Assembly (NCBI RefSeq): GCF_030145185.1
Contig: NZ_JAQYWB010000046.1
Location: forward strand, 1-50,378
Reading direction: 5' to 3'
Length of the DNA: 50,378 nucleotides
DNA from: Desulfoluna sp.
GTDB taxonomy: Bacteria > Desulfobacterota > Desulfobacteria > Desulfobacterales > Desulfolunaceae
Shown here: one piece after another, positions 36,099 through 39,606 of the stretch
Numbering within the stretch: position 1 is the stretch's first letter
Layout: every line of letters starts with the position of its first letter
Made by a program: the position numbers and the translations under genes
The notes under the pieces: generated by a model
Database searches by the model: none
Told to the model about the DNA's origin: nothing
What the model saw: the letters and a program-made list of their open reading frames with translations, nothing else

Positions 36099-36998
36099 AT
36101 GAACGTTTTGATTACTGGAGGCACCGGTTTTATCGGCACGGTTGTGGCGACCCGCCTTTTAAGTGAGGGACACGAGGTGGCGGTGACTGGGCGCAGCGGC
36201 CTGTCTTCCCTGATCGGCAGGGACCGCTTTCGAACCATTACCTGTGACACCACCGTTTCCGGTACCTGGCAGGAAGAGGTGGCACGCAGCGCCGTGGTGA
36301 TTAACCTGGCTGGTCGCACCATTTTCACCCGGTGGAATGAGGCGAAAAAGGCGGACATTTTGGAGGGGCGTTTGCTTACCACGGAAAACGTGGTGAACGC
36401 CATGTCAACGGGGGCTGTTTTGTTGAGTGCTTCAGCCGTCGGTTTTTACGGAGACCGGGGCGATACACTGTTGGCAGAGGAAGATGCGGGTGGTGACGGG
36501 TTCCTCGCCGATGTGTGCAAACGGTGGGAGGCAGAAGCCATGGCCGCCTCAGCCAAGGGTGTGCGGGTGGTGATCATGCGTTTTGGCGGGGTCCTGGGCC
36601 AGGGCGGCGGGGCTTTGGGGGCGATGCTGACGCCCTATAAGATGGGACTTGGCGGTCCCCTTGCCAGCGGGGAGCAGTGGTTCCCGTGGATTCATATGGA
36701 TGATCTTGTGACAGCCTTGATCTTTTTGATGGGGCATGACAGTGCCGAGGGACCCGTGAACTTTTGTGCCCCTTATGTGGTGAGAAACAAAGAGTTCTCA
36801 AAAACCCTTGCCGCCGTCCTCGGGCGTCCGGCCCCGTTCACTGTTCCACTGTTTGCCCTGCGCATGGCCATGGGAGAGCTTGCCGATGAGATCATCGCCA
36901 GCCAGCGTGTGGTGCCTGAAAAACTCTCATCCTGGGGATTCTCTTTTGCTTACCCTTCCCTTGAGGGTGCCTTGAAAAACATTTTGCAGGGAGAGTGA
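36099..36998 (+). CDS. TIGR01777-family NAD(P)-binding epimerase-like protein
   Basis: A 299-aa extended short-chain dehydrogenase-like protein of the YfcH/SDR39U1 type: Rossmann GGTGFIGTVVATRLL, NLAGRTIFTRWNEAKK, SASAVGFYGDRGD and the C-terminal DUF1731 (ALRMAMGELADEIIASQRVVPEKL). The family is widespread; its reaction is not established. The ATG at 36099 is set by GGGGGGA 4 nt upstream; the frame is open from 36045. It is monocistronic and ends before repeat-rich intergenic DNA. Confidence 0.93.
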   Translation: MNVLITGGTGFIGTVVATRLLSEGHEVAVTGRSGLSSLIGRDRFRTITCDTTVSGTWQEEVARSAVVINLAGRTIFTRWNEAKKADILEGRLLTTENVVNAMSTGAVLLSASAVGFYGDRGDTLLAEEDAGGDGFLADVCKRWEAEAMAASAKGVRVVIMRFGGVLGQGGGALGAMLTPYKMGLGGPLASGEQWFPWIHMDDLVTALIFLMGHDSAEGPVNFCAPYVVRNKEFSKTLAAVLGRPAPFTVPLFALRMAMGELADEIIASQRVVPEKLSSWGFSFAYPSLEGALKNILQGE

Positions 36999-37006
36999 AG
37001 GGAAAC

Positions 37007-37050
37007 CGTTCTTCGTGCTTGGTGCTTCGTTCGAGGAGTCGCTACGCTCC
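37007..37050 (-). repeat. Inverted copy of the 519-665 dispersed repeat
   Basis: The reverse complement begins GGAGCGTAGCGACTCCTCGA and continues with CACCAAG and CACGAAG units, matching 524-572 and 591-641 with few differences. It begins 9 nt past the TIGR01777 stop codon. Confidence 0.82.
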
Positions 37051-37228
37051 ATCAATTTAAAACAAACCATGCGCTGGGTGTTGATAACAGGCCTTAATAC
37101 ATGTCTCAGTCTCAGATTTACGTCGAACCCAATGCGGTTGTGATTCGCCGGTCTTGATTGATCATCGTTTCGCCCACCTTTTGAGTTTACGTCACCACCC
37201 TCTTCATAAAGCCCGGCAGTATCCCCTA

Positions 37229-37263
37229 TCCACCATGGGTTCCCGCCTTCGCGGGAAAGACGG
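37229..37263 (-). repeat. REP-like GCGGGAA palindrome
   Basis: TTCCCGC (37240-37246) pairs with GCGGGAA (37251-37257) around CTTC; read on the minus strand it is the familiar CCCGCGAAGGCGGGAA-type extragenic palindrome common in proteobacteria. Minus-strand frames through it give FPAKAGTHGG- and FPRRREPM-like peptides, a known artefact. The rest of 36999-37446 has no gene. Confidence 0.75.
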
Positions 37264-37446
37264 TAGAGAAGAGTGACGCCCTTGCCTCCTCGTCTTCCCC
37301 GGCTGTCCTGAAAAATGGATCCGGTTGAGCCGTTTTACAGCCCGACACTCTCCACCTTTTGTATCGCCAAGTGACCGGGGATCCATGCCTAAATTTACAT
37401 TTCCCTCCAGTCTGAGGCTCCGGTGGAATGGGAGCGCAAGGGCACC

Positions 37447-38019
37447 CTATGCATACCATTCGCTTCGTTTCCAGTCTCTGGCCTCTTTTTGAAAACTTTT
37501 CAGGTAGCAGCGCCCCTTTTTATCCCTGATGTCGTAGACCGCGTGTCGAAGGACGGTGATGGCGACCCCGCCTTTCATCTTTAATTCAATATCATAGCGA
37601 GAAAAATTTTCCAGCAGCCCTTTGATCACTTCCCCTTCCAGGAGAGTGAGAAGGATGACCTGCCTCTCCCTGATGAGAGGGTAAAGTGTTTTATTTTTGA
37701 TGAAGTAGCGATGGGCCGGTGCATGGATGGGGCCCATGCCAAGGGCCGTTGCCTTTTTATCGGTTTTTATGAGGCGGGTAATGACCTCGGTTGACGCCTC
37801 CGGAAAGTGGCATTTAACCTCCACCTTCGGGATGACGACCTCGTCTTGATCCGTTGCGACGTGGAGGTCATAGGTCGTCTGCCGCACGAGGACTCCCGCC
37901 AGGGAGCGTTGGTTATGCAGGAGGAACCGGGTCTTCTCCTGGCTTGTCTCAAGGGTGTTGAAGCCACTGAATTCATAGTGCTCTTTTTTGTAGTCCGAGA
38001 ACCCCTGGAGTTGCGTCAT
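37447..38019 (-). CDS. Hfq-like protein with two apparent Sm folds
   Basis: A 190-aa protein. Residues about 110-165 align with the Hfq core: PLIRERQVILLTLLEGE parallels the Hfq RRER rim and Sm1 start, VIKGLLENFSRYDIEL the G-x-I-x-F strand, and ITVLRHAVYDIR the Sm2 motif (Y-K-H replaced by L-R-H). Residues about 28-72 show the same strand order more weakly: RFLLHNQRSLAGVLVRQTTY, then VVIPKVEVK, suggesting a second Sm unit in the same chain. Classical Hfq is a 70-100-aa hexamer; a fused pair could form a trimeric ring. It starts 3 nt after the DUF177 stop (GGGGG about 10 nt before the ATG at 38019), so it is translationally linked to a ribosome-assembly gene. RNA binding is inferred. Confidence 0.72.
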   Translation of the reverse strand: MTQLQGFSDYKKEHYEFSGFNTLETSQEKTRFLLHNQRSLAGVLVRQTTYDLHVATDQDEVVIPKVEVKCHFPEASTEVITRLIKTDKKATALGMGPIHAPAHRYFIKNKTLYPLIRERQVILLTLLEGEVIKGLLENFSRYDIELKMKGGVAITVLRHAVYDIRDKKGRCYLKSFQKEARDWKRSEWYA

Positions 38020-38022
38020 GGG

Positions 38023-38577
38023 TTATTTCCCCCCCTTGAGAACTCTGAGTTTTGCGAAGGCAGGGTGTCCGGTGAAGATTTCACATTGACAGGCACCCTG
38101 GTTGAGATTTTTTCCGCATTCACGGCAGAGTCCCTTGCAGGTGTCCTTGCAGATCGGGTTCAAGGGGAGAGACATCACCACTTCGTCCTGAAGATAGGGG
38201 GTCAGGTCAATGTGATCACCCTCGAAGGTCTCTCGGATCAGGGCCTCTTCGCTGAGTTCCACCTCCATCTCCTCACCTTCTTGCGGTTCATGCTCCTGGG
38301 CGGAGTCCGGAACGAAGTGAAGATCGATCTCGGTGGTCAGGGCGTGGGAAAAAGATTCCAGGCATCTCCCGCAGGGTTGTTCGACCGTGAGGGCCAGCGT
38401 TCCCTTGACCTCTACCTGGCCTCCTGTGATACGCGCTGAAAGATCGATGGCCACAGGGGTGGTGAATCGAACCTCTCCTTTTTTCTCCAGGTCGGCAAGG
38501 ACGGGGAAACAGCCAGGGGACTCGCTCGCGGAGAAGGGGCTCCAGTTGTCTGAAAGGGTGGATATATTAAGGATCAT
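38023..38577 (-). CDS. yceD: DUF177 / YceD family protein
   Basis: A 184-aa protein of the DUF177 family, needed for 23S rRNA accumulation in E. coli and plants. The central Cys pair (CGRC) and the C-terminal ICKDTCKGLCRECGKNLN followed by CQCE are the family hallmarks and probably bind zinc. The ATG at 38577 (MILNISTL) is chosen for GGAGAG 4 nt upstream; frames from 38682 or 38589 are longer but less likely. In most genomes rpmF (L32) follows at once; here the next gene, after 3 nt, is the Hfq-like protein and no rpmF is present nearby. Confidence 0.9.
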   Translation of the reverse strand: MILNISTLSDNWSPFSASESPGCFPVLADLEKKGEVRFTTPVAIDLSARITGGQVEVKGTLALTVEQPCGRCLESFSHALTTEIDLHFVPDSAQEHEPQEGEEMEVELSEEALIRETFEGDHIDLTPYLQDEVVMSLPLNPICKDTCKGLCRECGKNLNQGACQCEIFTGHPAFAKLRVLKGGK

Positions 38578-38778
38578 GTTGCTCTCCATGGTTGGCGGGC
38601 CGATGATGGTTGCAAGGGGCACCCTTGATAAAAAAACCATCCGGCGTGAAAGGGGTGCGTTTATATCTGCGATCTGCAGCATAAAGGCACCCGGTATGCC
38701 TTAAGAATAAAATACCTGTGAACATTTTTACGAACTCTCTATCGCGTATTAGAACAGAAAGATGTCCGGTTGTAAATG

Positions 38779-39606
38779 TCATGGAAGGGTGAATCGAGCC
38801 ATGACAGGGGCGTGGTCGGACAAGGGGGTTGGAAAGGCCGTTGCCGGCCCCCTGGGGGTGAGCCCTCGGTAAAAAATATGGTCCAGGGCGAGCTGGGTGT
38901 TTCCACCGATGAGAGCCACCAGCGGTGAGGTTCCGGGTCGTTTTCCGGTGACAGGTATTTCCATGAAGTGAGGAAGGGCTTTTTTGACCACGGCGAGTCG
39001 CTGGTTGCTCCATGTATTGAAATCTCCGCAGATCACCACAGGCCCCTTAAAGGGGGAGACCCTTTCATGGATTTTTTCCATTTGAGCGGACAGGCCTCCT
39101 GGGGAGAGCTCAAAGTTGAGGCCATGGAGGGTAATCACGAGGAGGCGGTGTGTTTTTCCGTTCCGATCGGCCACAGGATATACAGCGGCCAGTCCCATCT
39201 TGGGGGTGGTGTAACCGAATTCACGCTGTGCGACTGTGATGGGGTGGGTGGTCATCGGGGGCGTCGATGAAAGGAGGGCGACCCCCGAGAGCGTATCGCT
39301 CCACCACCAGCGGAAGCTGCGGGCAAAATCAGCCCCTCGGCCCGGGATGGAAAGCATCTTCGGGGTCGCCTCTTGCAGGGCGACCAGAGACGAGGGGCTG
39401 CCTTCGGTGAGCTTTATTATGGTTTCCGCTATCTCAGGGGTTGAACTCTTGGCCCCTTTGGCGACATTCCATGTCACCAGAGTAAAGGTGGGAGCAAGCC
39501 TTGGGTTTTCGTCGGGGTAGGCGGAGACCTCATCCACGTCCTGAAGAGATGTGCAGGCGGTGGAAAGAAGCAGCATCAGAGCCAGCAGAAGTATCCTGGG
39601 GTTCAC
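38779..39606 (-). CDS. Endonuclease/exonuclease/phosphatase-family lipoprotein
   Basis: A 275-aa EEP-fold hydrolase with a lipoprotein signal (LALMLLLSTAC, lipidated Cys18). Catalytic landmarks are TWNVAKGAK, ALQEA (metal Glu), ITLHGLNF, ICGDFNTWSN, LDHIFYRG and SDHAPV. The family includes DNases, sphingomyelinases and phosphoinositide phosphatases; the substrate is open. The start is the GTG at 39606, which overlaps the rhomboid stop as GTGA with GGGGAGGGG just upstream; a much longer frame reaches 40122 but is the shadow of the rhomboid gene. An outer-membrane or periplasmic location is expected. Confidence 0.87.
   Translation of the reverse strand: MNPRILLLALMLLLSTACTSLQDVDEVSAYPDENPRLAPTFTLVTWNVAKGAKSSTPEIAETIIKLTEGSPSSLVALQEATPKMLSIPGRGADFARSFRWWWSDTLSGVALLSSTPPMTTHPITVAQREFGYTTPKMGLAAVYPVADRNGKTHRLLVITLHGLNFELSPGGLSAQMEKIHERVSPFKGPVVICGDFNTWSNQRLAVVKKALPHFMEIPVTGKRPGTSPLVALIGGNTQLALDHIFYRGLTPRGPATAFPTPLSDHAPVMARFTLP

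Follow-up and report, generated by a model that had tools for sequence, protein, structure and literature searches.

A predicted tandem Hfq-like protein in Desulfoluna with a patchy distribution across its phylum

We found that a 190-aa protein of Desulfoluna sp. (P0001) almost certainly carries two Hfq-like units in one chain, and this duplicated Hfq-like architecture is well supported. Its gene was encountered in the window, the whole 50,378-nt stretch of DNA analyzed (contig NZ_JAQYWB010000046.1). Bacterial Hfq is generally a ring of identical one-unit subunits. As the overall best explanation, we consider it likely that P0001 is a tandem Hfq-like RNA chaperone, perhaps assembling as a three-chain pseudo-hexamer. 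The features of the locus are as follows.

37447 to 38019, minus strand: tandem Hfq-like protein gene (P0001), 190 aa, ORF with an ATG start
37795 to 37983, minus strand: N-terminal Hfq-like unit, residues 13–75, as predicted by the AlphaFold2 (AF2) model, superposition and a profile match to the C unit
37699 to 37794, minus strand: linker, residues 76–107; in DSSP of the model, the rest of a helix at 74–83 and a helix at 88–93; R104 invariant
37516 to 37698, minus strand: C-terminal Hfq-like unit, residues 108–168, as indicated by an Hfq HMM, superposition and hhalign; R158-H159 in the place of K56-H57
37447 to 37515, minus strand: tail past the second unit, residues 169–190 and stop codon; predicted helices at 174–180 and 182–185; K174 invariant
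38020 to 38040, minus strand: purine-rich leader, GGGGGGGAAA, that overlaps the yceD end, with a similar leader across the genus Desulfoluna; probably a ribosome-binding site or coupling region
38023 to 38682, minus strand: yceD (DUF177), longest ORF (PF02620, E 6.3e-30); by eye, the true start is perhaps closer to 38577

The tandem gene is real and under purifying selection in six genomes of the genus Desulfoluna, with dN/dS values of 0.14–0.20 for pairs with dS below 1.5 (for example, dN 0.163 and dS 0.82). In the window it starts 3 nt past the yceD stop codon, and the same gene order occurs in all six genomes, five of them with a 3-nt gap and the sixth with 4 nt, in agreement with the original observation that the gene sits 3 nt behind DUF177/yceD. 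Because the tandem gene lies only 3 nt behind yceD, the two are probably co-expressed in Desulfoluna. A scan of positions 36900–39200 returned no promoter and three terminator-like sites, which did not exceed those of shuffled sequence. Downstream of the gene, a perfect palindrome, TTCCCGCCTTCGCGGGAA, occupies 37240–37257 (0.03 such sites expected within 2 mismatches), and we take it to resemble REP-like repeats. The minus-strand region 37200–37446 behind the gene also contains nested inverted repeats and has an unusually strong predicted RNA fold (z −3.76; 1 of 200 shuffles was as good).

By curated tests, the tandem protein falls outside the Hfq family. P0001 scored 12.5 bits against PF17209 (E 0.11; cut-off 27) and 13 bits against TIGR02383 (E 0.069; cut-off 61.7), the best observed TIGR02383 score among members was 21.9 bits, and none of the family bit scores obtained reached a curated Hfq cut-off (for most members, E-values alone were obtained). 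The picture was different with an HMM that we derived from 30 canonical Hfq sequences of the window's phylum. This model matched the C half of all 44 distinct family members (i-E ≤ 0.01), against 0/44 reversed and 0/440 shuffled copies, and the tandem ORF (E 3.2e-5) was the sole ORF of at least 60 aa in the window with a match at E ≤ 0.1. Likewise, hhalign of the C unit against Hfq scored 34.0 (z 8.5), spanning residues 107–161 with a single 2-residue gap, and 0 of 200 column shuffles were as good (shuffle maximum 24.1). In the opposite direction, the family profile A2 itself retrieved two canonical hfq genes, in G419 (E 0.0027) and G624 (E 0.00537), at positions that the PF17209 search of the phylum also identified. 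Judged from these sequence comparisons, the C unit is homologous to Hfq, as had been proposed from its resemblance to the Hfq core. The "RER rim" cited in that proposal proved only loosely kept: position 117 is K/R in at least 33, 118 is E in 34 and 119 is R/K in 42 of the 44 members.

When the two halves were compared with Hfq separately, the N unit gave a weaker result than the C unit. The Hfq HMM matched the N half of 0/44 members at i-E ≤ 0.01 (best i-E 0.041), and hhalign of the N unit against Hfq gave a modest score (19.0, z 4.0), which 1 of 200 column shuffles reached (shuffle maximum 20.4). The N unit aligned readily with the C unit (31.8, z 8.6; shuffle maximum 22.0), a score equaled by none of 200 column shuffles, and the two-unit signal is thus above chance. 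The homology of the N unit to Hfq is established via the C unit alone. Both halves are present across the 44 aligned members, whose matched length is 180–192 aa. Together with a structural model that contains two full units, the N-to-C match upholds the suggestion of an internally duplicated two-Sm chain.

The alpha1-beta1-5 Sm fold is predicted to be present in two copies. A first AlphaFold2 run with 6 sequences (mean pLDDT 74.5, pTM 0.77) gave two strand sets with low confidence around residues 99–116, and a run with 17 aligned relatives (mean pLDDT 94.1, pTM 0.90) gave two complete alpha1-beta1-5 Hfq units. In the latter model, the N unit comprises a helix at 19–26 and strands at 29–34, 38–47, 51–55, 60–64 and 68–73, and the C unit comprises a helix at 109–117 and strands at 121–126, 130–139, 143–147, 153–157 and 161–166. 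Residues 13–75, the less certain of the two proposed units, thus adopt an Sm fold in the prediction. The VIA superposition of residues 108–168 on Escherichia coli Hfq (5uk7_F) covered 59 residues at 0.8 Å (29% identity, Z 6.2), and that of residues 13–75 on Synechocystis Hfq (3hfo_B) covered 63 residues at 1.3 Å (19% identity, Z 6.4). Every VIA Z was below 8, and the top entry, ahead of Hfq, was YaeO (Z 6.5). Foldseek returned Hfq chains at probability 1.00, with no entry at E < 0.001; its first entry by E-value (0.0012, probability 0.99) was PDB 2x4j, which we take to be PSV ORF137, a 109-residue chain whose superposition was unconvincing (13.4 Å rmsd over 151 columns).

We examined conservation among 44 distinct full-length members, including P0001. 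Residues Y10, F20, K65, R104, N109, K110, G129, G134, F139, R158, H159 and K174 are invariant. In the C unit, position 142 is Y/F in 44/44, and R141 (43/44), K108 (43/44) and L157 (42/44) are nearly so; its Sm2 motif reads L/M-R-H-(A/S/G), where Hfq has (Y/F)-K-H-A. Alignment with Hfq, in what we take to be the E. coli numbering, places K108-N109-K110 at Q8-D9-P10, G129 and G134 at G29 and G34, F139 at F39, R141 at Q41, Y142 at F42 and R158-H159 at K56-H57. Assuming that the F42, K56 and H57 places form the proximal uridine pocket, the C unit retains its residues (Y/F142, R158 as R for K, and H159), each in 44/44. The distal-face places are unlike those of E. coli Hfq: position 125, at the place of Y25, is T in 41/44, and positions 128 and 130 are E/D. 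We read this as a proximal pocket that is kept and a distal face that is altered. In the N unit the proximal-pocket residues are partly kept: position 50 is aromatic and position 65 is K in 44/44, followed by H at position 66 in 1/44 only. Apart from the pockets, the C-terminus of the two f107 members (L104 and L105) is extended by a strongly basic stretch, KKVKIKRRKKVIIR.

These features suggest how the protein may work. Two Hfq-type Sm units, each with alpha1 and five strands, would be joined by a partly helical linker of about 30 residues, and the chains would pack edge to edge in the manner of Sm proteins. In the simplest arrangement, three chains would form a six-unit Hfq-like ring with N and C units alternating, a putative ring that would plausibly differ from that of ordinary Hfq. 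The C units would contribute a near-intact proximal uridine pocket (Y142, R158 and H159) together with further basic residues (K108, K110 and R141), and the N units a modified pocket (Y50 and K65). Such a ring would recognize U-rich RNA ends and, in lineages where the searches found no canonical hfq, may serve in RNA chaperoning or post-transcriptional regulation. We regard RNA binding as quite likely, and the chances of the three-chain pseudo-hexamer as evenly balanced. Alternatively, the C units alone would form a six-chain Hfq-like hexamer, with the N units outside it or in a second stacked ring (12 Sm units), as accessory parts. The better conservation of the C half, its closer resemblance to Hfq and the loss of the pocket histidine from the N unit fit this arrangement, but the N unit keeps F20, the aromatic residue at 50 and K65 in all 44 members and its predicted structure is no less confident than that of the C unit, and we consider the C-unit hexamer rather unlikely.

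The tandem protein resembles several known systems in part. As in Hfq (PF17209/TIGR02383), the Sm unit has an N-terminal helix, the C unit superposes closely, and the F39, F42, K56 and H57 places are held by F, Y/F, R and H; unlike Hfq, there are two units per chain in the AF2 model, scores fall below curated cut-offs, the Q8-D9-P10 places hold K-N-K and the Y25 place is mostly T. Hfq2 of Burkholderia cenocepacia (175–216 aa in the genus) is also a long Hfq-like protein. In the excerpt of PMC7074383 that concerns it, Hfq2 is described with a structured N-terminal region and an unstructured glycine-rich C-terminus, and as described there it differs from the tandem protein, which has two Sm units. 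The cyanobacterial Hfq-related protein (PF21979) weakly matched the C unit in 3/17 members (best E 0.0068), but that model (PF21979/NF047718) represents one unit of 61–64 positions, and scores stayed below cut-off for both PF21979 (P0001, 13.3 of 27 bits) and NF047718 (best 14.1 of 52 among ten members). NF010691/PRK14091, annotated "RNA chaperone Hfq", has a similar length (176 positions) and in two members gave a weak match to the C unit (E 0.0031 and 0.054), whereas its score was 17.1 of the 270 bits needed, the comparison being one of length and score. According to an excerpt of PMC3474761, organisms with two hfq-like genes exist; among the matches listed from the open-licence PMC literature, no paper dealt with a tandem-Hfq chain.

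Several other candidates were set aside. In profile searches of PDB sequences, HK97-type capsid proteins (E 0.019–0.096) came out ahead of Hfq (E 0.47, then 0.13), and none of these matches was significant; the likeness to HK97 gp5 found no backing in the predicted fold, and we took it as chance. An S1/OB-fold (PF00575) matched weakly in 4/17 members (best E 0.007), but the AF2 model and Foldseek favor Hfq, and NusA matches were weak (E 0.14–0.54). In a viral fold library, the best match was Gp188 of Bacillus phage W.Ph., at E 6.4e-6 but 14.3 Å rmsd, which was uninformative. A mobile element was also rejected: 32 stretches in viral contigs matched a pattern, none of which was confirmed as a relative, and a search of plasmid and phage collections with P0001 found no relative at E ≤ 0.01.

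The surroundings of the gene vary, and no neighbor is general to the family. In 23 of the 27 members from family f121, a receiver-domain gene on the same strand immediately precedes the tandem gene. These receivers belong to one subfamily (loci including L100, L103, L112–L116 and L118–L123) and have a tail resembling RFGPDWKEKD; the one example scanned matched PF00072 at E 9.2e-13. Among the other 17 members, no f121-type receiver gene occurred within flanks of about 1.5 kb. In G143 (L063), a divergent receiver with the same tail (E 7e-52) lies about 3.4 kb downstream, past an ACT-domain gene and two kinase genes, and in the window itself the best match to the f121 receiver subfamily (E 0.00032) was not a clear one. 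In f107 the tandem gene follows plsY (PF02660, E 4.2e-55 in L104), and in G695 it follows rnpA-yidC-jag-mnmE.

The receiver genes raise another possibility, that the protein is a protein-binding Sm-like factor, either a regulator in two-component signalling or an inhibitor of a transcription factor like Rof/YaeO. YaeO/Rof is a Rho inhibitor and is not known as an RNA chaperone. The receiver gene directly upstream in most f121 members, the related receiver downstream of two kinase genes in G143 and the top VIA rank of YaeO (PDB 6jie; 71 residues, 2.8 Å) are in line with such a factor. However, the alignment with YaeO, at 3% identity, runs across both units (15 to 158), and it is probably a fold-level match only. 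R158, H159 and K65 are moreover invariant in all 44 members, and outside f121 no receiver gene lies within about 1.5 kb, that of G143 being 3.4 kb off. A protein-binding role in place of RNA binding thus appears improbable.

The position behind yceD had been described as the slot where rpmF is usual, and a replacement of rpmF, with a link to ribosome assembly, had been suggested. This does not apply in the lineage. We found rpmF in all 16 genomes examined; 11 of these genomes had a yceD match (10 over the cut-off), and in them rpmF and yceD lay on separate contigs or, in the one-contig genome G001, about 320 kb apart. By eye, rpmF adjoins gltX- and fabG-like genes in the window's genome, G000, and in the sister genera represented by G006 and G007. 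In both searches the two-Sm gene was not found in G006 and G007, where the gene after yceD is MauE/DoxX-like. Since rpmF is present and apart from yceD also in these genomes without the gene, there is no sign of displacement by the tandem gene, and replacement of rpmF was rejected. Proximity of the family to DUF177 was likewise confined: yceD was found in the fetched locus (flanks of about 1.5 kb or less) of 6/44 members, all six of the genus Desulfoluna. A role in ribosome assembly, in which the protein would stand in for rpmF and work with YceD on 23S rRNA, would suit the 3–4 nt spacing in those six genomes and the partly RNA-related genes preceding the gene in G695, but it is very improbable given that rpmF is present in 16/16 genomes and lies away from yceD, that no yceD match was obtained in the carriers G114 and G172, that G156 has both genes on different contigs and that yceD is near just 6/44 members.

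We then consider the distribution of the tandem family, which is patchy across at least three classes of the phylum. The named relatives of P0001 are in D. spongiiphila (75% identity), D. limicola (74%), D. butyratoxydans (72%) and a Desulfobacteraceae MAG (65%). In a BLAST-type search, only six of 58 genomes had the gene, all of the genus Desulfoluna (G000 included), the other five at 51–75% identity. Profile A1 (E ≤ 0.05) detected it in 14/291 genomes of the class draw (6 full-length, 8 fragments or weak matches). Profile A2 gave 17/389 in the order draw (10 full-length, of which 6 were Desulfoluna, and 7 fragments or weak matches) and 11/247 in the phylum draw (8 full-length with G000 included, 2 canonical hfq and 1 fragment, that of G428, which carries an internal stop). 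With profile A3, 31/85 genomes in the class of G517 carried the family, the G685 copy being in two pieces on two contigs, as did 3/17 in the class of G490.

In a tree of 44 members, the six Desulfoluna sequences were placed beside G172 (support 97/91). The Desulfobacterales members did not form one group (4 changes), and a single origin for them may still hold. Apparently decayed fragments of the family gene in G114 (L023, C7, a second place in that genome), G188 (L015, C328) and G202 (L017, C182) suggest gene loss, and a fragment in G199 stops at a contig end. Separately, two 80-aa ORFs in G127 and G166, of one genus (L024, 1489–1731; L025, 1378–1620), weakly matched Hfq (E 7.5e-4 and 9.1e-4); they are possibly another Sm-like protein and were left out of the family.

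Canonical Hfq (PF17209) exceeded the cut-off in 0/291 genomes of the window's class (two weak matches were sub-threshold), in 0/85 genomes in the class of G517 and in 64/247 genomes of the phylum draw. Among the tandem-gene carriers searched, canonical Hfq was found in 0/41 (6 from the window's class, 31 from the class of G517 and 4 from the phylum draw), a count that assumes identical 291- and 247-genome draws, includes the G428 fragment and the split G685 copy, and has G001–G004 and G710 outside its scope. In the class of G517, the family is lacking in 54/85 and Hfq in 85/85 genomes, so that many genomes have neither protein. The tandem protein is thus no strict stand-in for Hfq, and a simple swap between the two was rejected. 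Because whole classes lack Hfq whether or not the gene is present, we regard the pattern as a lineage association, not proof of replacement.

The tandem protein probably works like Hfq; its ring geometry, RNA binding and role are inferred. The fullest form of this reading, which we put forward tentatively, is that three-chain pseudo-hexamers with alternating, chemically distinct pockets serve as an sRNA chaperone in Hfq-less parts of the phylum and, in one large family, are coupled to a receiver protein of their own. An Hfq that has duplicated and diverged would mirror the transition of eukaryotic Sm/Lsm rings to hetero-oligomers, and sulfate reducers that lack Hfq would gain a candidate RNA chaperone.
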